NCBI RefSeq assembly: GCF_024362525.1
Contig: NZ_CP101458.1
Coordinates: forward strand, 2,852,001-2,916,000
Length of the DNA: 64,000 nucleotides
Source of the DNA: Natrononativus amylolyticus
GTDB taxonomy: Archaea; Halobacteriota; Halobacteria; Halobacteriales; Natrialbaceae
Direction of reading: 5' to 3'
The position numbers were made by a program, and so were the translations under genes. A model generated the notes under the pieces. That model did not search any database and was not told where the DNA came from. It worked only from the letters and a program-made list of their open reading frames with translations. This document shows, in pieces, positions 29,972 to 63,056 of the stretch; the stretch's first letter is position 1, and every line of letters begins with the position of its first letter.

Positions 29972-29973
29972 GA

Positions 29974-31122
29974 TCACTCGTAGAGCCGATTTGCGACGAC
30001 GAGCCGGTTGATCTCGTTGGTCCCGTCGTAGATCTGGGTACCCTTCGCCTCGCGCATGTAGCGCTCGAGGGGGTAGTCCTCGGAGTACCCCCGCGCACCG
30101 TGGACCTGGACCGCCTCGGTGGCGATCTCCATCGCGGCGTCGGTGGCGAACGTCTTCGCCATCGCCGCCTCCTGTGTGATCCGCTCGCCCCGATCCCGGC
30201 CGTCGGCCGCCGAGAGGGTCAACAGGCGGGCTGCCTCGGTTCGAGCGGCCATGTCCGCGAGTTTGAAGCCGACCCCCTGGAACTCCCGGATCGGCTTGCC
30301 GAACTGCTCGCGCTCGCCGGCGAACTCGCGGCTGGCCTCGAAGGCCCCCTGGGCGATGCCGACGCCCTGGGCGGCGGTGCCGAGTCGACCGATGTCGAGG
30401 CCCTCCATGATGTACCGGAACCCCCGTCCCTCCTCGCCGACCAGGTTCTCGGCGGGCACTCGGAGGCCGTCGAACCGCAACTCGCTCTCGACGGCGGTGT
30501 CGCCCTCCATGCAGGGAATGTTCCGGACGACCGCGAACCCCTCACGCTCGCGGGGGTTCGGGACGCCGATGAGGCTGATTCCCTCGTGGCCCTCCCCGCC
30601 GGTTCTGGCGACCACGAGCAGGAAGTCGGCGACTGCGCCGTGGGTCGTCCAGATCTTGTGGCCGTCGATCACCCACTCGCCGCCCTCGTTTTTAGCTGTG
30701 GTCTCGAGGTTCGCGGCGTCGCTACCGGCTTCTGGCTCGGTGAGCGCGAACGCCGGAATCCACTCCCCGCGGCAGATCCGCGCCAGCCACGCCTCGCGCT
30801 GGCGGTCGGTGCCGAACTCGTAGATTGGATAGCCCACGAGCCCGCAGGCGATGTTGACCGCGCCGGCGGTGAGCTTCCAGGTGCGAGCGAGTTCCTCGAC
30901 GGTGATCGCGAACGAGCGGTAGTCCGCGCCGCCGCCGTCGACGTCCTCGGGGAAGGGGACCCCCGTGAAGCCAGCCTCGCCGATCAGTCGAACGAGATCG
31001 ACGGGAAACTCCCCCTCGCGCTCGTAGCGGTCGATTTCGGATTCGATCGTCCCCTCACAGAACTCGCGAACCTCCTCGCGGTGGGCCTCGTGGCGCTCCT
31101 CGAGTTCGAAGCGCTCGGTCAT
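29974..31122 (-). CDS. acyl-CoA dehydrogenase
   Basis: The 382-residue FAD enzyme has ALTEPEAGSDAANLETTAK, the FAD-binding IDGHKIWTTHGAVADFLLV, and the C-terminal AVQVHGARGYSEDYPLERYMREAKG. In the C-terminal base motif, where medium- and short-chain enzymes have Y-E-G-T, this protein has Y-D-G-T (D366), so the catalytic glutamate is replaced by aspartate. Start and stop overlap its neighbours (RidA-like gene upstream, MaoC gene downstream) by about 4 bases. A cyclic acyl-CoA substrate is plausible from context. Confidence 0.93.
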   Translation of the reverse strand: MTERFELEERHEAHREEVREFCEGTIESEIDRYEREGEFPVDLVRLIGEAGFTGVPFPEDVDGGGADYRSFAITVEELARTWKLTAGAVNIACGLVGYPIYEFGTDRQREAWLARICRGEWIPAFALTEPEAGSDAANLETTAKNEGGEWVIDGHKIWTTHGAVADFLLVVARTGGEGHEGISLIGVPNPREREGFAVVRNIPCMEGDTAVESELRFDGLRVPAENLVGEEGRGFRYIMEGLDIGRLGTAAQGVGIAQGAFEASREFAGEREQFGKPIREFQGVGFKLADMAARTEAARLLTLSAADGRDRGERITQEAAMAKTFATDAAMEIATEAVQVHGARGYSEDYPLERYMREAKGTQIYDGTNEINRLVVANRLYE

Positions 31123-31556
31123 AGCGCACCGGGATCGTGGTCGTCGTCCGGCCCGGCCGGATCGATCACGGCGAAGCCCTCCATCTCGATCAGCGCGTCC
31201 TCCTTGAAGAAGCCGCTCACCTCGAACAGCGCCATCGCGGGGTACTCCTCGACGTAGTCGGCGAAGATCTCACCGATTTCCTCCAGGTTGTCGCGGTAGG
31301 CATCGCGATCCGCGACGAAGACGTTCAGCTTGACGATGTCCGCACTCGAGCCGCCGGCCTCCTCGACGACCGCCGCGAGGTTCGCCATCACCTGTTCGAA
31401 CTGGCTGACGAGGTCGCCCGGGGCGACGATGTCGCCGTCGGGGCCCGACGCGTCCTGGCCGGCGAGAAAGAGCAACTCGCCGTTCTCGACGGTGAGGCCG
31501 TGGTTGAACCCCTTCGGGGGTGCGAGTTCCTCCGGCGTGACGATCTGCTTGCGCAT
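31119..31556 (-). CDS. RidA/YjgF-family protein, non-canonical active site
   Basis: The 145-residue protein has the trimeric RidA fold pattern: FNHGLTVENGELLFLAGQDASGPDG, a central helix with VMANLAAVVEEAGG, then KLNVFVADRD. Canonical RidA deaminases have P-A-R-x-x-x-E-V with an essential arginine; here the aligned residue is Met108 (P-A-M-A-L-F-E-V). It is therefore one of the Rid subgroups whose activity is not the classical imine hydrolysis. It is the first gene of the operon with acyl-CoA dehydrogenase and MaoC. Confidence 0.9.
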   Translation of the reverse strand: MRKQIVTPEELAPPKGFNHGLTVENGELLFLAGQDASGPDGDIVAPGDLVSQFEQVMANLAAVVEEAGGSSADIVKLNVFVADRDAYRDNLEEIGEIFADYVEEYPAMALFEVSGFFKEDALIEMEGFAVIDPAGPDDDHDPGAL

Positions 31557-31813: not shown

Positions 31814-32581
31814 ATGCCAGTAACCGACGCCGACCTCGAGGGCCAGGTCGCCGTCGTCACCGGCGGCACCAGGGGAATCGGCCTCGCGATCTCCCGCACC
31901 CTCGCCGCCGCGGGGGCCGACGTGGTGCCGGTGTCGCGCACCGAGGCAGACGTCGAGGCGGCCGTCGAGGACGTCCGCGAGGCGGGCGGCGAGTCGCTGG
32001 TCGCGCCGACGGACGTGACGGACGCCGACGACGTGGCCGCCCTCTTCGAACGCGTCGTCGACGAGCTCGGCGGTGTCGACGTGCTCGTGAACAACGCGGG
32101 GATCAACCCGCTCGAGGGGATGGGCACCCCCGAGACCGTCGATCCCGAAGCGTTCGAGCGGGTCGTCGAGGTGAACCTCGAGGGGGCCTTCGCCTGCACG
32201 AACGCCGCGGGGGAGTACCTGCTCGAGGGCGGCGGTGCGGTCGTCAACGTCGCGAGCACGGCCGGCCTCGTGGGGATCAAGCGCCAGCACGGCTACGTCG
32301 CCTCGAAACACGGCCTCGTCGGGCTCACCAAGAGCGCCGCGCTCGACTGGGCCCCGGACGTCCGGGTCAACGCGGTCGCGCCGGGGTACGTCGACACGGA
32401 GCTGACCGAGCCAGTGCAGGAAAACGAGGAGCTGTACGAGCGGCTGCTCGAGCGCACGCCCGCCGGTCGGTTCGCCGATCCCGAGGAGGTGGCGAGCGCG
32501 GTGGCGTTTCTCTCGAGCGAGATGGCCTCGTTCGTCACGGGAGAGTGTCTGGTGGTCGACGGCGGGTGGACGACCCAGTGA
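31814..32581 (+). CDS. short-chain dehydrogenase/reductase (FabG-like)
   Basis: From ATG 31814 the protein has 255 residues, the classical SDR size. It shows TGGTRGIGLAISRTLA (cofactor), NNAGINPLEGMG (NNAG), the catalytic YVASKHGL with Tyr and Lys, and VNAVAPGYVDTELTE. The C-terminal VTGECLVVDGGWTTQ is the usual end. It reduces or oxidises a hydroxy/keto group, perhaps a hydroxyacyl-CoA of the nearby degradation route. The open extension to 31688 is not used. Confidence 0.92.
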   Translation: MPVTDADLEGQVAVVTGGTRGIGLAISRTLAAAGADVVPVSRTEADVEAAVEDVREAGGESLVAPTDVTDADDVAALFERVVDELGGVDVLVNNAGINPLEGMGTPETVDPEAFERVVEVNLEGAFACTNAAGEYLLEGGGAVVNVASTAGLVGIKRQHGYVASKHGLVGLTKSAALDWAPDVRVNAVAPGYVDTELTEPVQENEELYERLLERTPAGRFADPEEVASAVAFLSSEMASFVTGECLVVDGGWTTQ

Positions 32582-33514: not shown

Positions 33515-34279
33515 ATGGTCAACGCAGGGTTCTCGATCGAGGACGGGATCGCGCGGATCGAACTCCAGCGCCCGGAGGCGCTGAACGCGGTCGACATGCC
33601 GACCAAACGGGAGATCATCGACCGCGTGCAGGCGTACAAGACGGACGACGACGTCCGCGTCGTCGTCTTCCAGAGCGAAGGGGAAACGTTCTGTGCCGGC
33701 GGCGACGTCAAGGAGGCCAGGGAGCGGGAGTACGCCCTCGAGCCCTTCACCGAGAGCTGGAACGAGCTGTTCGAGGCGATGATGGGACTCGGCAAACCCA
33801 CCGTCGCGCGGATCGACGGCTACACCCTCGGCGGCGGCTTCGACCTCATGCTTCACACGGACATCCCGATCGCCGCAGAAGACGCCCAGTTGGGCCAGCC
33901 CGAGGTGGGGCTGGGGATCGTGAACCACTTCTCGCCGCCGATGCTCCAGGCCAAGGTCGGCCTGACGAAGACGCTGGACATGATGCTGACGGGCGAAACG
34001 ATCAGCGGCGAGGAGGCCGACCGGCGGGGTCTCGTCGCCCGCAGCGTGCCGAGTGAGGATCTGGACGACGAGGTCGACGCCGTGGCAGAATCGCTCGCCG
34101 CGAAGAGCCCGCGGGTGCTCCGCAAGCTCAAAGACGGCATCTACGCCACCGCGGAGATGTCGCCCCGCGCGGGGCGGTCGTACCTCGAGGCGGTGTCGCT
34201 CGAGGCTGCCCGTGAGGATCCCGACTACGAGGAGGGCGTCTCGGCCCAACTCGAGGACCGCGAGCCGGAGTGGGAGTGA
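33515..34279 (+). CDS. enoyl-CoA hydratase/isomerase (crotonase) family protein
   Basis: The 254-residue crotonase-fold protein has RPEALNAVDMPTKREI, the oxyanion-hole segment ETFCAGGDVKEA, IDGYTLGGGFDLMLHTD and the catalytic-loop LGQPEVGLGIV with one active-site glutamate. The family hydrates enoyl-CoA, shifts double bonds or opens alicyclic beta-keto rings. The following alpha/beta hydrolase gene overlaps or nearly touches its stop, so they form a two-gene unit. An alicyclic CoA ring cleavage role is possible from context but not shown by a diagnostic residue. Confidence 0.92.
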   Translation: MVNAGFSIEDGIARIELQRPEALNAVDMPTKREIIDRVQAYKTDDDVRVVVFQSEGETFCAGGDVKEAREREYALEPFTESWNELFEAMMGLGKPTVARIDGYTLGGGFDLMLHTDIPIAAEDAQLGQPEVGLGIVNHFSPPMLQAKVGLTKTLDMMLTGETISGEEADRRGLVARSVPSEDLDDEVDAVAESLAAKSPRVLRKLKDGIYATAEMSPRAGRSYLEAVSLEAAREDPDYEEGVSAQLEDREPEWE

Positions 34280-37159: not shown

Positions 37160-38800
37160 CTACTCCCGCTCGCGCTCGCGGAGCTTCGCCCGCTGGATCT
37201 TCCCCGTCTCCGTCGTCGGGAGATCGGTCACGTACTCGATCGCGCGAGGGTACTTGTACGGGGCGATGCGCTCTTTGACGTGGTCCTGGAGCGCCTCGGT
37301 GAGCTCGGCGCCCGGATCGACGCCCTCCTCGGGCACGACGAACGCCTTGACGAGCTGGCCTCGCTCGTCGTCGGGGACGCCGATGACGGCCGTCTGGTAC
37401 ACCTCCTCGCGCTCGAGCAGGGTGTCCTCGACCTCTGGCCCCGGAACGTTGTAGCCGCCGGTGATGATCAGGTCGTCCCGGCGGGACTTGTACTCGAAGC
37501 GACCGTCCTCGCGGTGGACGAAGATGTCGCCGGGGATGCTCCAGCCGTCGTGGCTGTTCTCGCGCTGCTTCTCGGGCCGGTTCCAGTAGGTGACGCCCGT
37601 GGGGCCACGCACCAGAAGGATGCCGGGCTCGCCCCGGTCGAGTTCCTCGTAGGTGTCGGGGTCGACGACCTTGCACTCGTAGCCGGGGACGGGGAAGCCG
37701 GTCGCCGTCGGGTCGATCTCGTCGTCGTGGCGGTGGCTGATGAAGATGTGGAGCATCTCCGTCGAGCCGATGCCGTCGAGCGGCTCGACCCCCAGGCTGT
37801 CGACCACGTCCTGGTACGTGCTCGGCGGGAGCGGCTCGCCCGCGCTCACCGCCCGGCGCAGCGAGGAGAGGTCGTACTCCGCGATCAGGTCCTCGTGCTC
37901 GGCGAGCATCTGGTTGTACGCGGTCGGGATCGACGCCAGGATCGACACCTCGTCCTCCTGGATCGCGTCGAGCAGCTTCTTCGGGGTGGGGTCCTGGATG
38001 ATCCGGGTCGTGGCGCCGAACCGGAGCGGGAAGGCGACCAGCATCCCGTAGCCGAACGTGAAGGCGATCGGCGCGTTGCTCGTAAACACGTCCGAGGGCT
38101 CGGGCTCAAGGCAGTAGCGGGCGTAGGTGTCCGTGATCGCCATCATCTGGCGGTGTGTGTGGACCGTCCCCTTCGGTTTCCCGGTGGTGCCACTGGTGTA
38201 GGCGATCATCACCAGATCGTCGCGGTGGGTGTCGGGCTCGGCGAGGTCCGTACTCGCCCCCGCCAGCAGGTCGTCGTAGGAGTGGTGGTCGTGGTCGATC
38301 CCGTTGTCCTCGACGACGACGATCTCCTCGAGCCCGTCGAGGCCGTGTTCCTCGCGGGCGATCTCGAGTTCGTCGAGCAGGTCGTCGTAGACGACGGCGT
38401 AGGAGGCACCCGAATTCTCGACGACGTAGCTGATCTCGTTCGCTCGCAGGAGCTTCATCGACGGGACGGTGATCGCGCCGATCTTCTGGACCGCGAGACA
38501 GGTGACGACGTACTCCGGTCGATTGGGAAACCGGACGAACACCCGATCGCCGGCGTCGGCGCCGAGCTCGAGGAGGGCGTTGGCGACCCCGTTGACCCGC
38601 TGGCGGAGCTCCTCGTACGTCAGCGTCTCCTCGTCTGCAATCACCGCCGGCTCCTCACCCCGGCCGGCCTCGACCTGCCGATCGACCATCTCGTAGGCCG
38701 CGTTCAACCGTTCCGGGTAGTGTACCTCGGGAACCGCGTGAAAGTACGTCGGCTGTACGTCCTCGTCGGGGAGGTTCTCGGTCGGAACGGTGTCCTGCAT
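37160..38800 (-). CDS. benzoate/2-aminobenzoate-CoA ligase-like acyl-CoA synthetase
   Basis: The 546-residue AMP-forming ligase activates a carboxylic acid to its CoA ester. It has the ATP motif YTSGTTGKPKGTVHTH, YGMLVAFPLRFGA, GIGSTEMLHIF, the adenylate motif PGDIF with YKSRRDDLIITGG, and the C-terminal lysine in TETGKIQR. The N-terminal YPERLNAAYEMVDRQVEAGRG is characteristic of the benzoate-CoA/2-aminobenzoate-CoA ligase group. With kynureninase and the anthraniloyl-CoA-type flavoenzyme in the same region, anthranilate is the likeliest substrate. A TATA-like sequence at 38827-38836 lies about 32 bases upstream. Confidence 0.88.
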   Translation of the reverse strand: MQDTVPTENLPDEDVQPTYFHAVPEVHYPERLNAAYEMVDRQVEAGRGEEPAVIADEETLTYEELRQRVNGVANALLELGADAGDRVFVRFPNRPEYVVTCLAVQKIGAITVPSMKLLRANEISYVVENSGASYAVVYDDLLDELEIAREEHGLDGLEEIVVVEDNGIDHDHHSYDDLLAGASTDLAEPDTHRDDLVMIAYTSGTTGKPKGTVHTHRQMMAITDTYARYCLEPEPSDVFTSNAPIAFTFGYGMLVAFPLRFGATTRIIQDPTPKKLLDAIQEDEVSILASIPTAYNQMLAEHEDLIAEYDLSSLRRAVSAGEPLPPSTYQDVVDSLGVEPLDGIGSTEMLHIFISHRHDDEIDPTATGFPVPGYECKVVDPDTYEELDRGEPGILLVRGPTGVTYWNRPEKQRENSHDGWSIPGDIFVHREDGRFEYKSRRDDLIITGGYNVPGPEVEDTLLEREEVYQTAVIGVPDDERGQLVKAFVVPEEGVDPGAELTEALQDHVKERIAPYKYPRAIEYVTDLPTTETGKIQRAKLRERERE

Positions 38801-39113
38801 GTATGGTACTCGCTACTATGGCTCACGGGTATAGTTCTACCGTCGGAACGCCCCCGTCCGGTGGCCTCCCTCCGCCGTTTACTGTCTACAATAGTCGCTC
38901 CATGGACACGATCGTCGGTGGGTGCAGATGTAGAGAGAGAGTCGCCGAAAGAGTACGTCAGAAGACCGAGTTATACACTGACGGAACGAGGTGTGACGTT
39001 GCCGCCGTGGGGGACAGAATCGTACCGGAGTCGGCAGCGGGCGACTCCTTCGTACACCGTGCCATGGTATGGCGGAGCGTAGGTTTATCTATCGCGCCGG
39101 ACATGTTCGACGC
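38801..39113. promoter_or_regulatory. divergent spacer between CoA ligase and trpB
   Basis: This 313-base spacer contains no convincing gene. It carries a minus-strand TATA-like element at 38827-38836 (AACTATACC) for the CoA ligase. For trpB a plus-strand element TTTATC at 39084-39089 is centred 27 bases before the ATG at 39114. An extra AT-rich spot, TTATACA near 38971, has no matching gene start. Confidence 0.5.
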
Positions 39114-40271
39114 ATGTCTCACGGCGACTTCGAAGGATACGGCGGGCGGCACGTACCGGAGCCACTCGAGGAACCGCTAGAGCAACTGGCGAACGCCTAC
39201 GACGAGATCGGCAAGAGCGACGAGTTCCAGGCCGAGTTTCGCGACCACCTCGCGGAGTACGCCGGTCGACCGACTTCGCTGTACCACGCGAAGAACCTGA
39301 GCGAGCCCTACGACGCCGAAATCTACCTCAAGCGCGAGGACCTGCTCCACGGCGGCGCACACAAGATCAACAACTGCCTGGGCCAGGCCTTGCTCGCGAA
39401 GAAGGCCGGTCGAGAGCGACTGATCGCCGAGACCGGGGCCGGCCAGCACGGCACCGCGACCGCGATGGTCGGCGCGCTGTTCGGTCTCAAGACCGAGATC
39501 TACATGGGAAAGAAGGACGTCGAGCGCCAGAAGATGAACGTCTTCCGGATGCGCCTGATGGGCGCCGAGGTCAACGAGGTGACCCGCGGCGGCGAGGGGC
39601 TGGCCGACGCCGTCGACGCCGCCCTCGAGGACCTCGTCGAGAACGTCGAGGACACCCACTACCTCGTCGGGAGTGTCGTCGGCCCCGACCCGTTCCCGCG
39701 GATGGTCCGTGACTTCCAGTCCGTCATCGGCGAGGAGGCCCGCGAGCAGTTCATCGACCGAACCGGCGGATTGCCCGACGCGGCGGTCGCCTGTGTTGGC
39801 GGCGGCTCGAACGCGATGGGGCTCTTTCACGCCTTCCGCGACGACGAGGAGGTCGCCCTCTACGGGGCGGAAGGCGGCGGCGAGGGGGCGGACTCGAGTC
39901 GCCACGCCGCCCCGCTGGCAGCCGGCAACGACGACGTCATTCACGGAATGAAGACCCGCGTGATCGACGAAGACGTCGAGGTCCACTCCGTCTCCGCCGG
40001 ACTCGACTACCCCGGCGTCGGCCCCGAGCACGCCATGTTCCGCGAGATCGGTCGCTGCGAGTACACCGGCGTCACCGACGACGAGGCGCTGGCGGCGTTC
40101 CGGAAGCTGAGCGAGACGGAGGGGATCATCCCGGCGCTCGAGTCGAGCCACGGCGTCGCCCGCGGGCTCCAGCTCGCAGATGAGGGAGAGCACGACACGA
40201 TCCTCGTCAACCTCTCCGGTCGCGGCGACAAGGACATGGAGACCGCGGCGGAGCTGTTCTCCTTCGAGTAG
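39114..40271 (+). CDS. trpB: tryptophan synthase beta chain
   Basis: TrpB condenses indole and serine to tryptophan using PLP. The 385-residue protein starts at ATG 39114, matching the TATA element, and has the TrpB1-type [11 protein letters not shown] start, the PLP lysine K84 in HGGAHKINN, the catalytic E106 in ETGAGQHG and the phosphate site GGGSNAMG. The usual HTGAHK motif reads HGGAHK here. No trpA, trpC or other biosynthetic gene is next to it, which is odd; the surroundings are catabolic. Confidence 0.93.
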
Positions 40272-45895: not shown

Positions 45896-46015
45896 CGATA
45901 GCAGGTGTACGTGTGCCAGAGAGTATAATGCTGTGATACAGTCCAGAACCACCGGGTTCGAACGCCCGACCGATGGCAGTAGTGGCAGATCCCCACAGCG
46001 TGCAAAGTATGCGTC

Positions 46016-46153
46016 CTGTACTGACCAATCACTACCGTCGCAAATCGAGTCGAATTTCGTGCGACATTCGCACGTGTAGTGAGCGGATGGTTCACTGCTT
46101 TCGGCGTGAAACAAACGGGGGTGTCGTGCTACATTCGTGCCTGTATTCAGCAG
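46016..46153 (-). repeat. dispersed repeat, copy D (inverted, with internal segment)
   Basis: Read on the minus strand this copy runs CTGCTGAATACAGGCACGAATGT..., then a 75-base internal segment shared with 42124-42196, then GCGAATGTCGCAC... to GGTCAGTACAGG. It is inverted relative to copies A, B and C. Together with the promoter of the ATP-grasp-like gene it fills the 335-base gap between 45896 and 46230; no gene is seen there. Confidence 0.6.
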
Positions 46154-46230
46154 GTCCGTTTTGTCAGGTGATGAGGGTTCCAACAGCGCCGCCTCGAAAG
46201 GTTATGGCTTGCCACGTCGTAACACACGTC

Positions 46231-48016: not shown

Positions 48017-48964
48017 TCACCCGAGTGCCGCCCGCATCCGCTCTGCGAGGTCGTCCATCGCCGCGTCGGCCGCCTCGACGGCGTCCGTGAGGCTCAGAAA
48101 GCCGTGGGCCAGCGACGGGTAGTGAGCGTGGTGGACGGGAACGCCGTCGGCCTCGAGTCGCTCTGCGTACGCGGCACCCTCGTCGCGGAGCACGTCGTGA
48201 CCGCCCGTGAGCACCGTCGCCGGGGCAACCCCGGAACAATCCGGCGCGCGCAGCACCGCCGTGAAGGGGTTCGCCGCGTCGACCGGGCTCCGGAGGTACT
48301 GGTTCCAGAACCAGCGCATATCGGCCTCGGTGAGCAGCGGCCCGTCGCCGTGCTCGCGGTAGGAATCGGTGTCGAAGGCGCGGTCGGTGATCGGATACAG
48401 CAGGAACTGGCCCGCGAGCGGGATCGTCCCGTCGGGACCGTCCGGGCGCACCCGCAGCGCCGTCGCGGCTGCCAGGTTGCCGCCGGCGCTGGTGCCAGCG
48501 ACGGCGAGGCGATCGGGGTCGCCGCCGAGGCTGTCGGCGTACTCTGCGGCCCACTCGAGGGCCGCGTGGGCGTCGTCGAGGGGTGCGGGAAACGGGTGCT
48601 CGGGCGCGAGGTGGTAGTCGACCGAGCAGACCAGACTCCCCGATCGCGCGGCGATCTCCCGGCAGATGTCGTCGGCCGAGTCCAGCGTGCCGAGGGTCCA
48701 GCCGCCGCCGTGGTAGAACACGACCGTCGGCGGGTTCTCGACGTCGGGGCGGTAGGCCCGGATCGGGATCGGCCCCCCGGGGCCGTCGATCTTCAGGTCC
48801 CGCACGGATCGCATCTCGGGGCCGCCGCCCGCCGAAAAGACCTCGTCTTCGACCCGGCGGGCGCTCTCGACGGCCATCGCGTGCCAGGGCGGCACGCCCG
48901 CCGCCTGGATCTCCTCGACGACCGCTGCAAGCTGTGGATCGAGTTCGTCGCTCGCGTCTGCCAT
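48017..48964 (-). CDS. HSL-family alpha/beta hydrolase, candidate kynurenine formamidase
   Basis: The 315-residue protein has the hormone-sensitive-lipase signature HGGGWTLG (oxyanion hole), the nucleophile in AGTSAGGNLAAATA, a GHDVLRDEGAAYAERL acid loop and SLAHGFLSL with the base His. Family members are esterases and, in animals, the N-formylkynurenine formamidase. The gene is divergent from kynureninase with a 157-base shared promoter region, so hydrolysis of N-formylkynurenine to kynurenine is the best contextual proposal. The motif alone cannot distinguish this from a general esterase. Confidence 0.85.
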   Translation of the reverse strand: MADASDELDPQLAAVVEEIQAAGVPPWHAMAVESARRVEDEVFSAGGGPEMRSVRDLKIDGPGGPIPIRAYRPDVENPPTVVFYHGGGWTLGTLDSADDICREIAARSGSLVCSVDYHLAPEHPFPAPLDDAHAALEWAAEYADSLGGDPDRLAVAGTSAGGNLAAATALRVRPDGPDGTIPLAGQFLLYPITDRAFDTDSYREHGDGPLLTEADMRWFWNQYLRSPVDAANPFTAVLRAPDCSGVAPATVLTGGHDVLRDEGAAYAERLEADGVPVHHAHYPSLAHGFLSLTDAVEAADAAMDDLAERMRAALG

Positions 48965-49121
48965 ACCCCCACGCTCGTCCCAGGGGGAGGTTAATCCACC
49001 GGCAGGCGGGCGGTCGGGCCTCGAGCGGCGCGCACGGTCGGTGGGCGAACGGCAACCGACCGCCCGTAGTACGAGGCGGTCGCGCCGAAACGTTCGTGTA
49101 GATTCCCCGTGAGGGTCGCAC

Positions 49122-50456
49122 ATGGACTCGAGTACGGGCGAGGACGGGGCGACGGAGCGCGATCACCGGACCGGTGCCGACTACGCCCGCGAGCGCGACG
49201 AGGCGGACCCGCTCGCGGCCTTTCGGGGTCGGTTCGACGTCCCCGACGCCCACTACATGGACGGCAACTCGCTGGGGCCGGTCTCCGACGCGGCGGTGGC
49301 GAGCCTCGAGCGGGCGGTCGAGGAGTGGCGCGAACTCGCCATCCGCGGGTGGACCGACGCGGAGCCGCCGTGGTTCTACTACGGCGAGCGGCTCGGCGAC
49401 GAGCTGGCGCCGCTCGTGGGAGCCCGCGAGGACGAGGTCGTCGTCGGCAACTCGACGACGGTCAACATCCACACGCTGATCGGCACCTTCCTCGACGCGC
49501 TCGAGCGCGGCGAGGTCGGCGAGACGGACGCTCGCGCCGTCTTAGTCAACGACCTCGACTTCCCGACCGACCACTACGCGATCCGCGCCCAGCTGCGCCA
49601 GCGCGGGCTCGACCCGGACGAGCACTGCCACCTCGTCGAGAGCCGCGACGGCCGGACGATCGAAACCGACGATATCGTCGCGGCGATGGACGAGGAGGAC
49701 GTCGGCATCGTCTTCATGCCGTCGGTGCTCTACCGCAGCGGCCAGCTACTCGACGTCGAGCGGATCACCGAGGCGGCCCACGAGCGGGGCATCCTCGCGG
49801 GGTTCGACCTCGCCCACTCGATCGGCGCGGTTCCGCACGAGCTCTCTGCGGTGGGCGTCGACTTCGCGGTCTGGTGTAGCTACAAGTACATGAACGCCGG
49901 ACCGGGCGCTATTGCGGGCCTCTACGTCAACGAGGATCACTTCGGGCTCACGCCCGCGCTGGCGGGCTGGTGGGGCCACCACAAGGAGACGCAGTTCGAA
50001 CTGAACCTCGAGTACACGCCCGCCGAGACCGCTGGCGCCTGGCAGATCGGTACGATTCCGGTGCTCTCCGCGGCGCCGCTCGAGGGTGCGATCGAGATCA
50101 CCCGCGAGGCCGGCATCGAGGCGATCCGCGAGAAGTCACTCGAACTGACCTCCTACCTCATTAGCCTCACCGACGAGCACCTGGCCGATCGCGGCGTTTC
50201 CGTCGGGACGCCGCGGGAACCGGAGCGGCGGGGCGGCCACGTCGCCCTCGAGCACGCCGACGCCTACCGGATCAGCCAGGCGCTGCGCGACCGGGGGATC
50301 GTCGTCGACTTCCGGCCGCCGAACGTGATCCGGGTCTGCCCGGCCCCGCTGTACACCGGCTACCGCGACGTCCGCGAGGTCGTCGACGCGGTCGCGGAGA
50401 TCGTCGACGAGGCGGAGTACGAGGAGTACGAGCGCCAGGGAGACGGCGTCACGTAG
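49122..50456 (+). CDS. kynU: kynureninase
   Basis: Kynureninase cleaves kynurenine to anthranilate and alanine with PLP. The 444-residue class V enzyme has YMDGNSLGP, VVVGNSTTVNIHTLIG, FDLAHSIGAVP and the PLP lysine K255 in WCSYKYMNAGPG, followed by the family mark GWWGHHKETQFE. The last residues RVCPAPLYTGYRDVREVV are normal, so the enzyme is full-length. It is divergent from the formamidase candidate and separated by 135 bases from the gamma-glutamyltransferase gene. Confidence 0.96.
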   Translation: MDSSTGEDGATERDHRTGADYARERDEADPLAAFRGRFDVPDAHYMDGNSLGPVSDAAVASLERAVEEWRELAIRGWTDAEPPWFYYGERLGDELAPLVGAREDEVVVGNSTTVNIHTLIGTFLDALERGEVGETDARAVLVNDLDFPTDHYAIRAQLRQRGLDPDEHCHLVESRDGRTIETDDIVAAMDEEDVGIVFMPSVLYRSGQLLDVERITEAAHERGILAGFDLAHSIGAVPHELSAVGVDFAVWCSYKYMNAGPGAIAGLYVNEDHFGLTPALAGWWGHHKETQFELNLEYTPAETAGAWQIGTIPVLSAAPLEGAIEITREAGIEAIREKSLELTSYLISLTDEHLADRGVSVGTPREPERRGGHVALEHADAYRISQALRDRGIVVDFRPPNVIRVCPAPLYTGYRDVREVVDAVAEIVDEAEYEEYERQGDGVT

Positions 50457-50591
50457 GTCCCCCGACCGGACGGACAGCTCGTCGGATCGAGGGGACGCCT
50501 TATCGACCGAGCGGGCGCGTCGCTCGAGGCGTCTTTCAGGGTCGGCGAGGGACCCCCAACCGATTTAGTCCGGACCGGTGTAGGGCGTTCG

Positions 50592-52358
50592 ATGACCACC
50601 CCACTCCGCCGACGCGAGTTTCTCGCGGGAAGCGGCGGCGTCGGACTCGCGGGCGTCGCCGGCTGTCTCGAGGCGGCGGAAGACGGTCCCGGGGCGGCGG
50701 ACGACGGAGCCGTCGAACACCCGAGCGCCGACGCCGCGGCGATCGTCTCCCAGCACCGCCTCGCTACCGACGCGGGACTCGAAGTGCTCGAGGGGGGCGG
50801 GACGGCAGCCGACGCCGCCGTCGCCGTCGCCTGTGCGCTCAGCGTCGTCGAACCCTGGTTCTCCTCCGCGCTGGGCGGTGGCACCTGGGCGCTGTACTAC
50901 GACGCCGAGGTCGAGGAGGTGACCAGCGTCGACGGCGTCGGCCCCGTCGGCGCCGAGGCGACGGTCGAGGACTTCGAAGAGCGGGCGGGCGACGACGGCA
51001 TCCACCAGGCGATCGTCCCCGGCGCCTGGGACGGCTGGATGCTGTGGCTCGAGCGCTACGGCGCCCTCGACCTCGCGGAGGTGCTGGCGCCGGCGATCGA
51101 CCTCGGCCGGGAGGGGTATCCCATCAGTCCGGAGATGGCGGGCTGGCTCGATCGAGGGGCCGACGAGATCGGCGATCGGTCGGCCGCGGCGGCGATCTAC
51201 GCGCCCAACGGCGAGTTCCTCGAGGAGGGCGACACCGTCTACCAGCGCGAGATGGCCGACACGTTCGAGTCGCTCGCCGAGGTCTACGCCGACCGCCTGG
51301 ACGAGGGCGAGAGCGAGGCGATCCAGGCGGCGCGGGACCACTTCTACCGCGGGCCGATCGCCGACGCGATCGTCGAGTACGCCGACGAGCACGGCGGCTA
51401 TCTCACCCGCGAGGACTTCCGGGGGTTCGAGGCGGAGATCGTCGAGCCGATCTCGATCGAGTACGGCGACGTGGAGGTGTACCAGAACCCGCCGAACAGC
51501 CAGGGGATCACCCAACTCCTGGCGCTGAACAAGCTGGCGGCCCACGACTTCTCCGGGCTCGAGTCCGACGACGCCGACGCCGTCCACGCCCAGGTCGAGG
51601 CGATCAAGCTCGCCTTCGCGGACCGCTATCACCACGTGGGCGACCCGGATCGGGTCGACGTCCCTGTCGACGAGCTGCTCTCCGAGGAGTACGCGGCGAG
51701 CCAGCGCGACCGGATCGAGATGGACGAGGCGCGGGAGTGGCCGATCGACTCCGGGATCGAGAGCACCGACGCCGACCACACAACCACGTTTCACGTCGTC
51801 GACGGGAACGGCAACGCGGCGGCGGTGACGACCAGCTTGGGCGCGCAGTTCCTCGTCATCGGCGACACCGGTATCCACATCAACAACCGGATGCGGATGC
51901 TCGCGGTCGATGAGGGCAATCCCAACCGACTCACCCCCGGTTACAAGGTGCGTCACACGTCGAACCCCTACATGGCGCTGCGCGACGGGCGACCGTACGT
52001 TCTGGGCGGGAACACCGGCGTCGACACCCAGCCCCAGGGCCAGACCCAGCAGTTCCTCCACGTCGTCGAGTTCGGCCTCGACGCCCAGGAAGCGATCGAC
52101 CACCCGCGGTTCGTCAGCACCGCGTTCCCCTCCACGCAGTACCCATACGAGTACGAGAACACCGTGCAGGTGGAGTCCGACTACCCGTCGGCGCTGATCG
52201 AGGAACTCGAGAACCGCGGCCACGACGTCGAGGAGGGGGGCTCGTTCGGCTCGGCGACGATGATCGTCGTCGACGAGGACGGAGACCGCGTGCAGGTCGG
52301 CGCCGAACCGCGGATCTCCACCGCCGAGGGACGAGTTTCGCCGCCGGACGAGGGGTAA
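50592..52358 (+). CDS. ggt: gamma-glutamyltransferase, Tat lipoprotein
   Basis: GGT removes or transfers the gamma-glutamyl group from glutathione-like compounds after autocleavage. The 588-residue protein has a twin-arginine signal (LRRREFLAGSGGVG) with a lipobox at VAGC near residue 27, then AIVSQHRLATDAGLEVLEGGG and NPPNSQGI. The autocleavage threonine is T397 in DHTTTFHVVD, where bacterial enzymes have TTHYS. The small-subunit GGNTGVDTQPQ region is also present. It is convergent with the dioxygenase gene; a direct part in tryptophan breakdown is not evident. Confidence 0.93.
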   Translation: MTTPLRRREFLAGSGGVGLAGVAGCLEAAEDGPGAADDGAVEHPSADAAAIVSQHRLATDAGLEVLEGGGTAADAAVAVACALSVVEPWFSSALGGGTWALYYDAEVEEVTSVDGVGPVGAEATVEDFEERAGDDGIHQAIVPGAWDGWMLWLERYGALDLAEVLAPAIDLGREGYPISPEMAGWLDRGADEIGDRSAAAAIYAPNGEFLEEGDTVYQREMADTFESLAEVYADRLDEGESEAIQAARDHFYRGPIADAIVEYADEHGGYLTREDFRGFEAEIVEPISIEYGDVEVYQNPPNSQGITQLLALNKLAAHDFSGLESDDADAVHAQVEAIKLAFADRYHHVGDPDRVDVPVDELLSEEYAASQRDRIEMDEAREWPIDSGIESTDADHTTTFHVVDGNGNAAAVTTSLGAQFLVIGDTGIHINNRMRMLAVDEGNPNRLTPGYKVRHTSNPYMALRDGRPYVLGGNTGVDTQPQGQTQQFLHVVEFGLDAQEAIDHPRFVSTAFPSTQYPYEYENTVQVESDYPSALIEELENRGHDVEEGGSFGSATMIVVDEDGDRVQVGAEPRISTAEGRVSPPDEG

Positions 52359-52392
52359 CGCGCCACCGTTCGTTCTCGCGGAACCCTCGCGC

Positions 52393-53550
52393 TCACACCT
52401 TGTGAGTGCCCGTCTCGTCCTCCATCTCGCCGAGGAACGACATGTAGTCGGTGCCGCCGGTGCCGGTCGTCTCGCCGGTCACCGCCCGGATGTACTGGAT
52501 GACCTGGCCGAAGTGGACCAGCCGGAACGTCTGGAGCGCCTCGATACAGCGGTTGAACGCGGCCGAAAGTTCGTCGTCGCCCTGTGCCGCGACGTAGGGG
52601 CGGACGTCGACGTCCGCGTCGAACGCCTCGACGACCGAGCGGTGTTTCTCGGGCATGTACGTCCGCATATCCAGCAGTTTTTCGATCAGTTCCGTCGTCT
52701 CGTGTTCGATCCCGAGAGTGGCGTCGATCGACGGCAACGCGCAGCTCTGGGCGCCGGAACCGCCGCGGTAGGTCTGTGCGCCCTCGAGTTCGCCGACGCC
52801 CTCGTACACCAGCTCGTCGAAGCCGTTGTAGTAGGGGCGGTACTCGGTGGCGAACGCGGTCGGCTCGTTCTCCTCGGTCATCCGGCGCATGATCGATGTC
52901 TGGCGCTCGAGGGAGTCGGCGATCGTCTCGAGGGCCGCCTCGAGAGCGGTCGGGTCGTCTCCACGAATCGCCGCCTGGGCGCGGGCGCAGGCGACCAGCG
53001 CCGGTCCGGCCGCGGCCTCGATGGCGACGTGGACGACCACGAACCAGCGTTCGTCCGCGAGGTCGGTGAACTGCTGGACGGTCTCTAAATTCCCGAGGAC
53101 GAGTCCCCCGTCGGGGTCGCGGCGGCGAAAGTTGTGCAGACAGAGCAGGTCGTACGAGAGGATCGGCTTCCGGCCGAGGCGCCTCGAACTGCGGTACAGC
53201 GGAACGGCCACGCCGGCGGGCAGCCGGTCGACGGGGTCGGCACCGATCCGGTTGACGTAGCCGCTCGCGAGGAAGCCGGAGAGCAGGCAGAGCCGGACGG
53301 TCTCGCGGTCGGAGAGCCCCTCGAGCAGCCCGTCGGGCGGCGTCTCGAGATCCTCGACGAGCGGTCGCAGTTCGCCCTCGGCGAGCAGCGACGGGAGCCG
53401 CTCGCCGAACTCGTCGAGGCGACGGAGGTACGCGTCCACGGCGCCGTCGCCGGCGGGCTCGAACCGCGTGAGCGGGTCCTCTTCGGGAAGAAAGCCACGC
53501 CGCTCGTCGATCCCGTACGCAGAGAGAACCGCCCCGCTCGTGTGATCCAT
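52393..53550 (-). CDS. indoleamine 2,3-dioxygenase family protein
   Basis: IDO opens the indole ring of tryptophan to N-formylkynurenine with heme and oxygen. From ATG 53550 the protein has 385 residues and the IDO (not TDO) motifs: SYDLLCLHNFRRRDP, AFATEYRPYYNGF with the substrate-contacting Phe and Arg, GGSGAQSCALPSIDATLGIEH, DMRTYMPEKHR, the heme-ligand histidine H346 in FRLVHFGQVIQYI, and GTGGTDYMSFL. A GTG at 53556 is an alternative start. A TATA-like AGATAAG lies about 31 bases upstream on the minus strand. The gene is divergent from the flavoenzyme operon. Confidence 0.95.
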   Translation of the reverse strand: MDHTSGAVLSAYGIDERRGFLPEEDPLTRFEPAGDGAVDAYLRRLDEFGERLPSLLAEGELRPLVEDLETPPDGLLEGLSDRETVRLCLLSGFLASGYVNRIGADPVDRLPAGVAVPLYRSSRRLGRKPILSYDLLCLHNFRRRDPDGGLVLGNLETVQQFTDLADERWFVVVHVAIEAAAGPALVACARAQAAIRGDDPTALEAALETIADSLERQTSIMRRMTEENEPTAFATEYRPYYNGFDELVYEGVGELEGAQTYRGGSGAQSCALPSIDATLGIEHETTELIEKLLDMRTYMPEKHRSVVEAFDADVDVRPYVAAQGDDELSAAFNRCIEALQTFRLVHFGQVIQYIRAVTGETTGTGGTDYMSFLGEMEDETGTHKV

Positions 53551-53802
53551 TACCACGGCGTACGGCCCCGACGCTCTTCAAACTTATCTCGCTCCGGACA
53601 CATCAGTGAACAAAGATGGTCGTCGACGGGAGTTTCTGCGACCGAGTGTGAGGAGTCGTCCTCGAGGCGCCAGAACTCCGTTCCAGTGCGCTTTCGGACT
53701 CGTTCGCCGCTGCTGTTGTACGGTCGGAGGCGTGGAAACGCGCGGCCGCAACCTCGAATAACCGACAGGTATACGGCAATCCCTCACAAGGGTCAGAGTA
53801 AC

Positions 53803-54657
53803 ATGCAGGTCGGAATCGGGTTGCCGAACACGCTCGAAGGCGCGGATCGGGAGCTGCTCCTGACGTGGGCCCGACGGGCAGACGAGGGACCGTTTACGAG
53901 CCTCGGCGTGTTCGATCGACTGCTGTATCGGAGCACCGAACCGCTGTCGACGCTCGCCGTCTGCGCCGGCGTCACCGAGGAAATTCGACTCGCGACCTCG
54001 ATCGTCGCGGGGCCGCTGCGAAACGACGCGCTGCTGGCGAAGGAGGCGGCGACGATCGACGCGCTCTCCGGCGGGCGACTCACGCTCGGACTCGCACTCG
54101 GGGCGCGCCGGGACGACTACGAGGCCGCCGGCGTCGACTACGGCAGTCGCGGCCGGCGGTTCTCGAGGCAGCTCTCGGAACTCCGTTCGTACTGGGAGGA
54201 CGACGAGATGGGGCCGGAGCCGGTCCAGGATGGCGGCCCGCAACTGCTCGTCGGCGGCGACAGCGACCCGACCTTCCAGCGCGTTGGGCGGTACGCCGAC
54301 GGCTACATTCACGGCGGCGGTCCGCCGCGGGCGTTCGAGAAACAGGCCAATCAGGCACGTGCGGCCTGGCAGGAGTCGGGCCGCCCCGGCGGCCCCGACC
54401 TCTGGGGCCACGGCTACGTCGCGCTGGGCGAGGAGGCCGCCGAGCGCGGTCGGGAGTACCTGCTCGACTACTACGCGTTCACCGGCCCCTTCGCCGAGCG
54501 GATCGCCGAGGGGTTGTTGACGACCCCCCAGGAGGTGCTCCAGTGTATCCGTGGGTACGCCGACGCGGGCTGTGACGAACTCATCCTCTTCCCGACCGTC
54601 GCCGACGAGGAACAGTACGACCGACTCGAGACCGTGATCGAAAACGAGTGGGGGTGA
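53803..54657 (+). CDS. luciferase-like (LLM) flavin/F420-dependent oxidoreductase
   Basis: From ATG 53803 the protein has 284 residues and the LLM TIM-barrel pattern: MQVGIGLPNTLEGADRE, FTSLGVFDRLLYRSTEPLSTLAVCAGVT, IRLATSIVAGPLRNDALLAKEAATIDALSGGRLTLGLALG and the typical SGGRLTLGL motif. Members use F420 or FMN. The gene is only 4 bases before the monooxygenase/reductase fusion gene, so it is coupled to it and may supply reducing power or act on a neighbouring intermediate. A TATA-like GGTATACGG lies 30 bases upstream. Confidence 0.9.
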   Translation: MQVGIGLPNTLEGADRELLLTWARRADEGPFTSLGVFDRLLYRSTEPLSTLAVCAGVTEEIRLATSIVAGPLRNDALLAKEAATIDALSGGRLTLGLALGARRDDYEAAGVDYGSRGRRFSRQLSELRSYWEDDEMGPEPVQDGGPQLLVGGDSDPTFQRVGRYADGYIHGGGPPRAFEKQANQARAAWQESGRPGGPDLWGHGYVALGEEAAERGREYLLDYYAFTGPFAERIAEGLLTTPQEVLQCIRGYADAGCDELILFPTVADEEQYDRLETVIENEWG

Positions 54658-54661
54658 TACG

Positions 54662-56809
54662 ATGGAGATCGCTGTCGTCGGCGGCGGGCCGGGCGGACTG
54701 TACGCGAGCCTCCTGCTCAAGAAGGAACACCCCGACTGGGAGATCACCGTCTACGAGCGCGACCCCGTCGACAACACCTACGGCTGGGGCGTCGTCTTCT
54801 CGGACGCCACGCTCTCGAACCTTCGCGAAGCGGACACCGAGAGCCACGAGCGGATCACCGACGCCTTCGTCCGGTGGGACCCCATCGACGTCCACTACGA
54901 CGACGAGCGCTTTCGCTGCGGTGGCCACGGCTTCGCCGGCATCATGCGCGCGGATCTCCTGGGCATTCTCCAGGATCGCTGTCGGGAGGTCGGCGTCAAC
55001 CTGCGCCACGAGGTGGCGATCGACGACCCCGAGGAACTGGCGGCCGAGGTCGACCTGCTGATCGGCGCCGACGGCCTCAACAGCACGGTCCGCGAGCACT
55101 ACGAAGACGGCTTCAAACCCTCCGTCGAGATGGGCAACGCGAAGTTCGCCTGGTTCGGCACCGAGAAGCCGTTCGACGTCTTCACGTTCGTCTTCCGGGA
55201 GAACGAACACGGCCTCTGGCGGGTCCACGCCTACCCCGGCCGCAAGAGCACGTTCATCGTCGAGTGCACCGAGGAGACCTGGCGCAACGCCGGCATGGAC
55301 GAGAAAGACGAGGAGACCGCGCTCGCGTACTTCGAGGAGCTCTTCTCGGATCACCTCGAGGGCCACGCCCTCGAGAGCAAGCTCTACGCCTGGCGGAACT
55401 TCCCCGTCGTCTCCTGTCGGACCTGGTCGCTCGGAGACGACGTCGCCCTCGTCGGCGACGCCGCCCACACCGCGCATTTCTCGATCGGATCGGGAACCAA
55501 ACTCGCGATGGAGGACGCCATCGCCGTCCTCGAGGGCGTCCGGGAACACGGCACCGACGGCGGGGCGGCGCTCAACTGGTACGAGAAGGAACGGCGGCCG
55601 CGCGTCGAGGGGCTCCAGGAGGCCGCAGAGCGGAGCCAGCGCTACTTCGAGAACGTCGAGCGCTACTGGCACCTCGAGCCCCGGCGGTTCGCGTTCAACC
55701 TGCTCACCCGGAGCGGCCGGATCTCGTATGAAAGCCTCAAGGTGCGCGACGTCGAGTTCGCCGACGAGTACGACCGCTGGTTCCAGCACGCGCTGGCGGC
55801 GAACCCCGGCACCGACGCGGTCCCCGTCGCCGCGAAACCGCCGCTGTTCCAGCCCCTCGAGTTGCGCGAGCTGACGGTCGAGAATCGCCTGACGCTGACC
55901 CGCCCGCCCGCCCACTCCGCGAGCGACGGCACCCCCTCGGAGAGCTATCTCGAGGGGCTGGCCGAGCAGGGCGAGCGCGGGCCGGGGCTGGTGCTAACCG
56001 ACCCGGTCGCCGTCTCCCCCGAGGGGCGCATCTCGCCGGGAACGCCGGGGCTGTACGAGGAGACCCACGCCGACGTCTGGGGCGACCTCGTCGCCGACCT
56101 CCGCGACGGGACCGACGCGGCCGTCGGCGTCCAGCTGTTTCACGCCGGGCGGCGAGGATCGATGCGACCGCGAGCCCACGGGCTCGACCGGCCGCTCCCC
56201 GCCGAGGAGGGGTGGGAGCTGTTCGCCCCCTCCGCGAAATCCTATACGCCCGGTGGGCGCACGCCGACGGCGATGGACGGCGACGACTGCGAGCGGATCC
56301 GCGAGGCGTTCGTCCGGTCGGCGGAGCTGGCCGAGGCGGCAGGTTTCGACTACGTTCAGCTTCACGCCGGCCACGGCTACCTGCTCTCGTCGTTCCTCTC
56401 GCCGCTCACGAACGAGCGCGACGACGAGTACGGCGGCGACCTCGAGACCCGCGCTCGCTACCCCCTCTCCGTGTTCGACGCCGTCCGGGAGGCGTGGCCC
56501 GACGAAAAGCCGCTGGGGACGGCGCTGCAGGCGACCGACTGGAACCTCAGCGGACTGAAGACGAGCGACTCGAGGCGGGTCGCGGAGATGCTGGCTGACC
56601 GGGAGTGTGACCTCCTCTCGGTCGTCGCCGGCCAGGCGACGTTCAAGGAGCGCCCGCGGTACGATCCGACCGTCCTCGCGGACTTCACGGAGGCGTTCAG
56701 AAACGAGGTACAGATCCCGGTGCTGTCGACGAACTACGTGACGACCTACGACGAAGTGAACACGCTCGTCGGCGCCGGGCGGGCCGATCTCTGTACGTTC
56801 AGCCGGTGA
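54662..56809 (+). CDS. 2-aminobenzoyl-CoA monooxygenase/reductase-type fusion flavoenzyme
   Basis: The 715-residue protein joins two enzymes. Residues about 1-370 are an FAD monooxygenase: VVGGGPGGLYASLLL, DLLIGADGLNSTVR and ALVGDAAHTAHFSIGSG. Residues about 385-715 are an old-yellow-enzyme barrel with LHAGHGYLLSSFLSPLTNER. This architecture belongs to 2-aminobenzoyl-CoA monooxygenase/reductase and salicylyl-CoA 5-hydroxylase. Context with kynureninase and the CoA ligase favours anthraniloyl-CoA, which such enzymes hydroxylate and reduce to a non-aromatic product. The C-terminus stops at GAGRADLCTFSR, some 50 residues shorter than relatives I recall. Confidence 0.92.
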   Translation: MEIAVVGGGPGGLYASLLLKKEHPDWEITVYERDPVDNTYGWGVVFSDATLSNLREADTESHERITDAFVRWDPIDVHYDDERFRCGGHGFAGIMRADLLGILQDRCREVGVNLRHEVAIDDPEELAAEVDLLIGADGLNSTVREHYEDGFKPSVEMGNAKFAWFGTEKPFDVFTFVFRENEHGLWRVHAYPGRKSTFIVECTEETWRNAGMDEKDEETALAYFEELFSDHLEGHALESKLYAWRNFPVVSCRTWSLGDDVALVGDAAHTAHFSIGSGTKLAMEDAIAVLEGVREHGTDGGAALNWYEKERRPRVEGLQEAAERSQRYFENVERYWHLEPRRFAFNLLTRSGRISYESLKVRDVEFADEYDRWFQHALAANPGTDAVPVAAKPPLFQPLELRELTVENRLTLTRPPAHSASDGTPSESYLEGLAEQGERGPGLVLTDPVAVSPEGRISPGTPGLYEETHADVWGDLVADLRDGTDAAVGVQLFHAGRRGSMRPRAHGLDRPLPAEEGWELFAPSAKSYTPGGRTPTAMDGDDCERIREAFVRSAELAEAAGFDYVQLHAGHGYLLSSFLSPLTNERDDEYGGDLETRARYPLSVFDAVREAWPDEKPLGTALQATDWNLSGLKTSDSRRVAEMLADRECDLLSVVAGQATFKERPRYDPTVLADFTEAFRNEVQIPVLSTNYVTTYDEVNTLVGAGRADLCTFSR

Positions 56810-56926
56810 CGGTGGCGGGGTCGGTCGTCCGGTCCGCCTGCACCGGGCACCGCCGCAGGCGCGACGAGTCGCAGAATTTGCCGACGCATAGGAGTCCTTT
56901 TCACCCCGCCAGACGCAGTGAGTACC

Positions 56927-58090
56927 ATGCTCGATTACGTCTCGCTCGAGGGCGACCTCGAGGAAGAAGAGCGGCTGATCCGGGATACGGCTCGCGAGTT
57001 CGTCGACGAACGGGTGCGCCCCGATATCGGCGACCACTACGAGAACGGCACCTTCCCCACCGACCTCATCCCCGAGATGGGCGAGATGGGGTTCTATGCA
57101 CCCAATCTCGAGGGTTACGGCTCGCCAGGCGTTTCCGAGACCGCCTACGGGTTGTTGATGCAGGAACTCGAGGCCTGCGACTCCGGATTGCGGTCGATGG
57201 CCTCCGTGCAGGGTGCCCTCGTGATGTACCCGATCCACGCCTACGGCAGCGAAGACCAGAAGGAGGAGTGGCTGCCGAAACTGGGCGAGGGCGAGGCGGT
57301 GGGCTGTTTCGGCCTCACGGAGCCCCAGCACGGTTCGAACCCCTCGGGGATGGAAACGCACGCCGAGCGCGACGCGGATGGCTTCGTGCTCAACGGCTCG
57401 AAAACGTGGATCACCAACTCCCCGATTTCGGACGTCGCGGTGGTGTGGGCGCGGGACCGCTCCGCCGACGATAACCCGGTTCGAGGCTTCCTCGTCGAGA
57501 CCGACCGCGACGGCGTCAGCACGAACAAGATCGACGAGAAACTCTCGCTGCGCGCCTCCATCACCGGCGAGATCGGTCTCAACGACGTCCGCGTGCCCGA
57601 GGAGAACGTTCTTCCCGGTGTGGAGGGGATGAAGGGGCCGCTCTCCTGTTTAACGCAGGCGCGCTACGGCATCGCCTGGGGTGCGGTGGGTGCGGCTCGA
57701 GACTGCTTCGAGGAAGCCCGCCAGTACGCCAAAGACCGAGAGCAGTTCGGCGGGCCGATCGGCCGGTTCCAGCTCCAGCAGGACAAACTCGCGGAGATGG
57801 CGACCCAGATCACCCTCGCACAGCTGCTGGCGTACCGCCTCGCGGAACTCAAAGAGCGCGGCGACCTCCGGCCCCAGCACGTCTCGATGGCCAAACGCAA
57901 CAACGTCCGGATGGCTCGCGACCAGTCGCGCGTCGCCCGCGAGATGCTCGGCGGCAACGGCATCACGACGGATTACTCGCCGATGCGCCACATGGCCAAC
58001 ATGGAAACCGTCTACACCTACGAGGGCACCCACGACATCCACACGCTGGTGCTCGGCCAGGATCTGACGGGGATCGCCGCCTACGAATAA
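56927..58090 (+). CDS. glutaryl-CoA dehydrogenase-type acyl-CoA dehydrogenase
   Basis: This 387-residue FAD enzyme matches the glutaryl-CoA dehydrogenase group: GFYAPNLEGYGSPGVS, LTEPQHGSNPSGMETHAE, KTWITNSPISDVAVVWAR, LSLRASITGEIGLNDVRVPEENVLPG, and the catalytic glutamate E366 in TYEGTHDIHTLVLG. Glutaryl-CoA is dehydrogenated and decarboxylated to crotonyl-CoA. ATG 56927 is used. The gene follows the fusion flavoenzyme by 117 bases on the same strand, which suits a route in which the opened ring is shortened to glutaryl-CoA. Confidence 0.93.
   Translation: MLDYVSLEGDLEEEERLIRDTAREFVDERVRPDIGDHYENGTFPTDLIPEMGEMGFYAPNLEGYGSPGVSETAYGLLMQELEACDSGLRSMASVQGALVMYPIHAYGSEDQKEEWLPKLGEGEAVGCFGLTEPQHGSNPSGMETHAERDADGFVLNGSKTWITNSPISDVAVVWARDRSADDNPVRGFLVETDRDGVSTNKIDEKLSLRASITGEIGLNDVRVPEENVLPGVEGMKGPLSCLTQARYGIAWGAVGAARDCFEEARQYAKDREQFGGPIGRFQLQQDKLAEMATQITLAQLLAYRLAELKERGDLRPQHVSMAKRNNVRMARDQSRVAREMLGGNGITTDYSPMRHMANMETVYTYEGTHDIHTLVLGQDLTGIAAYE

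Positions 58091-60875: not shown

Positions 60876-63056
<2,181 letters not shown>

Follow-up and report, generated by a model that had tools for sequence, protein, structure and literature searches.

Natrononativus amylolyticus carries genes of the upper kynurenine pathway on a haloarchaeal chromosome (Halobacteriales) of 3.99 Mb, and the question raised by this locus is what pathway they serve. We analysed a window of 64,000 nucleotides (contig NZ_CP101458.1, positions 2,852,001 to 2,916,000), and all coordinates below are positions within it. An initial annotation had described a candidate kynurenine formamidase, a kynureninase (KynU) and an indoleamine 2,3-dioxygenase (IDO) as one block of 5.5 kb. 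The genes of this block are present, but the unit extends past 53550 and is conserved over 24.6–62.2 kb. The kynurenine genes are most likely the middle of a tryptophan-catabolic island of about 38 kb (Table 1), which would probably encode a complete route from tryptophan through kynurenine, anthranilate, 2-aminobenzoyl-CoA and a dearomatised thioester to β-oxidation. Gene content, protein families, key residues, synteny and co-occurrence were established directly.

Conservation of the island

The occurrence of the genes was surveyed in 293 genomes of the order Halobacteriales. This survey found IDO in 15 genomes, kynU in 132, and close relatives (at least 61% identity) of ABM, the flavoprotein monooxygenase described below, in nine. 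KynU lies in the same stretch of about 20 kb as IDO in 11 of the 15 IDO genomes, including that of N. amylolyticus; because IDO is found in so few genomes and kynU is so often close by, the arrangement is not due to chance. All nine ABM genomes are among the 15 IDO genomes, and in every one ABM and IDO share a contig, in many cases less than 20 kb apart. The hypergeometric probability of this overlap is 1.3e-13 counted by genome and 6.8e-6 counted by genus, the latter correcting partly for kinship.

The order of the window is repeated in genome G087, from the LivM-type permease through the MFS transporter gene. Genome G164 has the short-chain dehydrogenase (SDR), the enoyl-CoA hydratase-type (crotonase-family) protein, the CoA ligase, TrpB, the hydrolase, kynU, IDO, the LLM-class flavoprotein, ABM and an acyl-CoA dehydrogenase in a single 15-kb run, which has no γ-glutamyltransferase (GGT), with the genes for MaoC, acyl-CoA dehydrogenase 2 and the Rid protein just upstream. 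Genome G030 belongs to a different family within the order; it has ABM, LLM, IDO, the hydrolase, the ligase, the crotonase, SDR, Rid, acyl-CoA dehydrogenase 2, MaoC and all five Liv genes. The gene set is reordered, and placed on plasmids or a second chromosome, in Haladaptatus halobius, H. salinisoli, H. pallidirubidus and Halomicrococcus gelatinilyticus. ABM, IDO and kynU also occur together in the Halobacteriales metagenome-assembled genomes (MAGs) QH_2_65_14 and QS_4_66_20, and in two Chloroflexota MAGs (Ardenticatenaceae/Ardenticatenia). The putative anthranilate-consuming genes and the transporter belong to the same conserved unit as kynU and IDO.

Predicted steps from tryptophan to anthranilate

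IDO and KynU pass their family models by wide margins (Table 1), which confirms the identities first given to them. The IDO open reading frame (ORF) has an in-frame ATG at 53550. The protein retains the proximal haem His and the active-site Arg and Phe (YMPEKHR, FATEYR), and a distal His occupies the position of Ser167 of human IDO1 in all 19 aligned sequences (17 haloarchaeal and 2 from Chloroflexota). It is predicted to open the indole ring, giving N-formylkynurenine. Tryptophan 2,3-dioxygenase (TDO) was rejected as the supplier of this first step: its model, PF03301, had no match in the genome itself or in the 293 genomes of the order, and did match in two bacterial controls.

Alignment of KynU with solved kynureninases (1qz9, 3e9k, 7s3v) shows that the motif CSYKY-N-G, with the Lys that binds pyridoxal phosphate, is present, and that where the human enzyme has His and Ser-Asn, KynU shares Trp and Gly-Thr with the Pseudomonas enzyme. 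The Trp/Gly-Thr residues favour L-kynurenine over 3-hydroxykynurenine, and therefore anthranilate is expected as the product. KynU thus fits a bacterial-type enzyme acting on unsubstituted kynurenine, which would be cleaved to anthranilate and alanine.

The intervening removal of formate, to give kynurenine, would fall to the α/β hydrolase encoded divergently from kynU. Of the three consecutive steps that the initial annotation had proposed, KynU and IDO stand, as does a role in tryptophan catabolism, for which the synteny is strong; the formamidase is a guess from gene neighbourhood. Among 40 further kynU loci, all without IDO, 24 have the hydrolase head-to-head with kynU within 1.5 kb. It is a hormone-sensitive-lipase-type protein of PF07859 and lacks the PF04199 cyclase fold of the bacterial KynB family. 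It passes the NCBIfam esterase model LipP1, and the solved structures nearest to it are esterases, both of which argue for an ordinary esterase. Formylkynurenine would then be hydrolysed by some other enzyme, for example the PF04199 cyclase encoded on contig 3 of the genome. We consider this rather unlikely, because the cyclase adjoins no kynU or IDO locus examined, and was rejected as the formamidase for that reason, whereas this type of hydrolase accompanies kynU even where IDO is missing. The eukaryotic kynurenine formamidase also belongs to the same superfamily as the hydrolase. We note that IDO and TDO are both missing from about 118 of the 132 kynU genomes, and that kynU is often head-to-head with the hydrolase in them (e.g., loci L062–L101).

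The ORF positions first given for the hydrolase, kynU, GGT and IDO agree with our recheck, and the gap between the hydrolase and kynU is indeed exactly 157 bp. A longer hydrolase ORF, reaching 49123, represents an upstream extension that is absent from the homologues. The gap contains an 8-bp inverted repeat (CGGTCGGT-N12-ACCGACCG, 49035–49062). The repeat was not found conserved, and a shared operator for the two genes was not retained.

Proposed consumption of anthranilate

We infer the substrates and the order of the reactions, together with the roles of the LLM protein, TrpB and the formamidase; for the steps after KynU, the substrates are assigned from co-occurrence and protein family. 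The aryl-CoA ligase would convert anthranilate to 2-aminobenzoyl-CoA. It is found in the cluster in the f1 genomes, in Haladaptatus and in G030, and in QS_4_66_20 it lies 157 bp from IDO. ABM is an FAD monooxygenase of 715 residues fused to a degenerate old-yellow-enzyme (OYE) domain. Its best whole-length model is PRK08255 (831 bits, nearly full length), and its best reading is as an enzyme of the 2-aminobenzoyl-CoA monooxygenase/reductase kind. ABM and the LLM-class flavoprotein would together hydroxylate and reduce 2-aminobenzoyl-CoA to a non-aromatic thioester, as in Azoarcus evansii. The crotonase, SDR, MaoC and the two acyl-CoA dehydrogenases would then open the ring and carry out β-oxidation of the resulting chain. 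Acyl-CoA dehydrogenase 1 is 80–89% identical in the clusters of G164, G087, G128 and G030.

The Rid family protein is co-conserved with ABM in both archaea and bacteria. Its canonical catalytic Arg105 (numbered by the E. coli reference sequence) is replaced by Met, Leu, Val, Thr or Ile in the aligned cluster members. A classical enamine deaminase was therefore rejected, and enamine hydrolysis by this protein is doubtful because the usual catalytic Arg is missing. ARAGORN places a tRNA-Glu (ctc) at 31449–31541 (+), antisense within the conserved Rid gene, which is probably a false positive.

Several observations weigh against the complete route, in addition to the altered Rid protein. TIGR02262 is a benzoate-CoA ligase family covering several aryl acids, and the ligase is barely above its cut-off. 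ABM scores below the curated PRK08255 cut-off (831 against 1078 bits), and that model is named salicylyl-CoA 5-hydroxylase/oxidoreductase. The Halobacteriales MAG QS_1_69_70 has ABM without IDO, kynU or a detected LLM gene, and G128 has the hydrolase, kynU and IDO but no ABM. It could therefore be argued that only the upper kynurenine pathway is real, with anthranilate excreted, used as a signal or directed to tryptophan biosynthesis, and with the ligase and ABM acting on salicylate, benzoate or a similar acid. The names of the two models would agree with this, as would five IDO-less haloarchaea in which a more distant ABM relative adjoins a CoA ligase. We nevertheless regard it as improbable: all genomes of the order with a close ABM carry IDO on the same contig, the ligase of QS_4_66_20 is next to IDO, and the genome has its own trpCBA, so that kynurenine is not needed for making anthranilate. 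A eukaryote-like role in quinolinate and NAD synthesis, to which IDO and kynureninase are also common, is more improbable by far. The KynU residues are those of an enzyme for unsubstituted kynurenine, 3-HAO of the NAD branch had no match in the genome (in a search that had no positive control), and archaea use the aspartate route for NAD (PMC4217691). The complete route through 2-aminobenzoyl-CoA remains our preferred reading.

Loss of OYE motifs in ABM and the proposed LLM partner

The OYE domain was compared in 60 ABM proteins (among them the window protein and those from loci L118–L168 and L231–L237), a sample that includes a few near-duplicates. Five, designated class A, have an intact OYE domain, with the PM-x-x-Y motif, the VR(I/V)S Arg and a GR-P stretch at the C terminus; this class is under-sampled, because the sample was drawn with class-B patterns. 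The class A proteins come from Opitutus/Opitutaceae, Rhodocyclaceae, an alphaproteobacterial MAG and Roseisolibacter, and none of the five has an LLM gene upstream, although for two of them the contig ends nearby, about 0.9 and 1.1 kb further upstream. The remaining 55, including the window protein, form class B. They lack all three motifs, most of them terminate shortly after the GRADL motif, and 49 have an LLM gene within about 140 bp upstream. Of the six without one, five are distant paralogues from haloarchaea, encoded next to a CoA ligase, and the sixth is from a MAG. The new observation is that in the haloarchaeal relatives, and in most of the bacterial ones, the OYE half of ABM no longer carries its signatures for FMN and catalysis, and that nearly all of these have LLM directly upstream.

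The loss of the motifs together with the adjacency of LLM (49/55, against 0/5 where the motifs are intact) suggests that LLM supplies the lost reductase. Probably, then, the OYE half of ABM in this lineage is no longer a working FMN reductase and LLM does the reduction; it seems that ABM has one active half fewer and is now partnered by a separate protein. Against the F420-subfamily model TIGR03619 the LLM protein scores 131.9 bits (cut-off 166.9), and its best solved match, a weak one, is an F420 enzyme. It is quite possible that LLM is instead a second oxygenase or an unrelated F420 enzyme, and that the OYE domain still reduces via an unusual FMN site, since LLM proteins include monooxygenases and many class B domains retain the Tyr and one or both of the two catalytic His. 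What speaks for replacement of the OYE half by LLM is that the VRIS Arg, the PM-Y motif and the C-terminal GR-phosphate motif were lost together, nearly always with LLM alongside. More tentatively, we suggest that the haloarchaeal/Chloroflexota-type ABM represents a dearomatising system of its own, where the place of a dead OYE domain was taken by a separate, possibly F420H2-dependent LLM reductase, and which in haloarchaea is wired to IDO, kynureninase and stand-alone TrpB, so as to mineralise fully both tryptophan and serine-captured indole via anthraniloyl-CoA.

The five haloarchaea of loci L231–L235 have an ABM relative of 45–47% identity beside a CoA ligase, with no LLM or IDO. These relatives may be salicylyl-CoA-type, or possibly simple, hydroxylases.

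Comparison with known systems

Destruction of the ring as a CoA thioester is known from a few bacteria. The aerobic 2-aminobenzoate pathway of Azoarcus (Aromatoleum) evansii, with 2-aminobenzoate-CoA ligase and 2-aminobenzoyl-CoA monooxygenase/reductase, resembles the island in its CoA ligase, fused FAD monooxygenase-OYE protein and β-oxidation enzymes (reviewed in PMC4539516). The island differs in having an archaeal host and a coupling to IDO and kynureninase, and in that its OYE half has degenerated, is shortened at the C terminus and is accompanied by LLM. According to its abstract, the original A. evansii study reportedly included a YjgF-type protein and an ABC-transporter binding protein in the gene set.

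The bacterial kynurenine-anthranilate route (TDO, KynB, KynU) carries out the same three reactions to anthranilate, but the island has IDO for TDO and a hormone-sensitive-lipase-type hydrolase for KynB. In the 2-aminobenzoyl-CoA cluster of Cupriavidus anthranilate is likewise consumed as the CoA thioester; it arises there directly from indole (Qu et al. 2017, cited in PMC6221969), whereas in the island it would come from tryptophan via kynurenine, with indole possibly entering through TrpB. Haloarchaeal tryptophanase also catabolises tryptophan, but yields indole plus pyruvate, with no attack on the ring (PMC3102087). No description of an archaeal pathway from tryptophan to anthraniloyl-CoA was found in the literature collection searched. 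If correct, our reading would add to haloarchaeal tryptophanase a ring-destroying tryptophan route for archaea, and would place this IDO among the few prokaryotic ones with a clear metabolic context. The close match between missing OYE motifs and an LLM gene alongside opens the reductive part of this little-understood dearomatisation to direct tests, in archaea as well as in several bacterial phyla.

Transport genes, TrpB and other genes of the window

The coordinates of the island features are collected in Table 1. The Liv-type ABC transporter, of which all components are encoded, would import the substrate. The LivM-type permease has the same order and orientation beside the cluster in G087 (L225) and G030 (L226), and a homologue of the MFS transporter is at the same place in L018, L021, L022 and L063.

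Table 1. Features of the proposed tryptophan-catabolic island, in window coordinates
Feature	Position	Strand	Evidence
LivM-type permease, branched-chain/aromatic amino-acid ABC transporter	24611..25651	-	PF02653, 103 bits
LivH-type permease	25704..26561	-	translation and conserved position
LivG-type ATPase	26736..27458	+	PF00005 and PF12399; conserved with cluster
LivF-type ATPase	27455..28168	+	PF00005; conserved with cluster
Substrate-binding lipoprotein of ABC transporter	28194..29438	-	PF13458, 154 bits; conserved in L225, L226
MaoC-type hydratase	29522..29977	-	PF01575; in cluster in L028, L118, L119, L225
Acyl-CoA dehydrogenase 2	29974..31122	-	PF00441/PF02770/PF02771; cluster-conserved
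Rid (YjgF/L-PSP) family protein	31119..31556	-	PF01042, 72.5 bits (cut-off 27.3)
Short-chain dehydrogenase (SDR)	31814..32581	+	cluster-conserved
Crotonase-family protein (enoyl-CoA hydratase or ring-opening hydrolase)	33515..34279	+	PF00378, 173 bits; cluster-conserved
Aryl-CoA ligase, proposed 2-aminobenzoate-CoA ligase	37160..38800	-	TIGR02262, 379.4 bits (cut-off 375.25)
Stand-alone TrpB, no TrpA beside it	39069..40271	+	TIGR00263, 540.7 bits (cut-off 392.45; TrpB1 type)
α/β hydrolase, candidate kynurenine formamidase	48017..48964	-	PF07859, 239 bits; divergent from kynU
Shared divergent promoter region (predicted)	48965..49121	.	157 bp between hydrolase and kynU
Kynureninase (KynU)	49122..50456	+	TIGR01814, 353 bits (cut-off 246.4)
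γ-Glutamyltransferase (GGT), Tat/lipobox-type N terminus	50592..52358	+	PF01019, 392 bits
Indoleamine 2,3-dioxygenase (IDO)	52393..53556	-	PF01231, 242 bits (cut-off 26)
LLM-class flavin/F420 oxidoreductase	53803..54657	+	PF00296, 114 bits; directly upstream of ABM
ABM, FAD monooxygenase fused to degenerate OYE domain	54662..56809	+	PF01494 and PF00724
Acyl-CoA dehydrogenase 1	56918..58090	+	PF00441/PF02770/PF02771
MFS transporter, end of block	60931..62178	+	PF07690, 188 bits

In 9 of the 15 IDO genomes TrpB is encoded no more than about 20 kb from IDO, and Haladaptatus has an extra copy beside IDO; the canonical trpCBA is elsewhere in the N. amylolyticus genome. Its recurrence beside IDO in several lineages suggests a capture of indole into the route, and TrpB may feed indole together with serine into it. 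It is not specific to the island: stand-alone TrpB proteins of about 80% identity are widespread in haloarchaea, and only the position beside IDO in several lineages is notable.

The GGT, which the initial annotation had left unexplained, was rejected as a member of the pathway because none of the other IDO loci examined has it at this position, between kynU and IDO; it is probably a private insertion. Together with five other genes that interrupt the block (those for a serpin, a histidine kinase, an HVO_A0261-type regulator and a methyltransferase, and an unnamed ORF at 45152–46183), it was not found in the relatives' clusters compared. The serpin (40295–41734, -; PF00079, 370 bits) has a Tat/lipobox-like N terminus and is encoded here in an archaeon. 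An acetyltransferase at 58122–58700 (-) passes the model for ArsN1 family B (arsinothricin resistance), with 217.8 against 210 bits.

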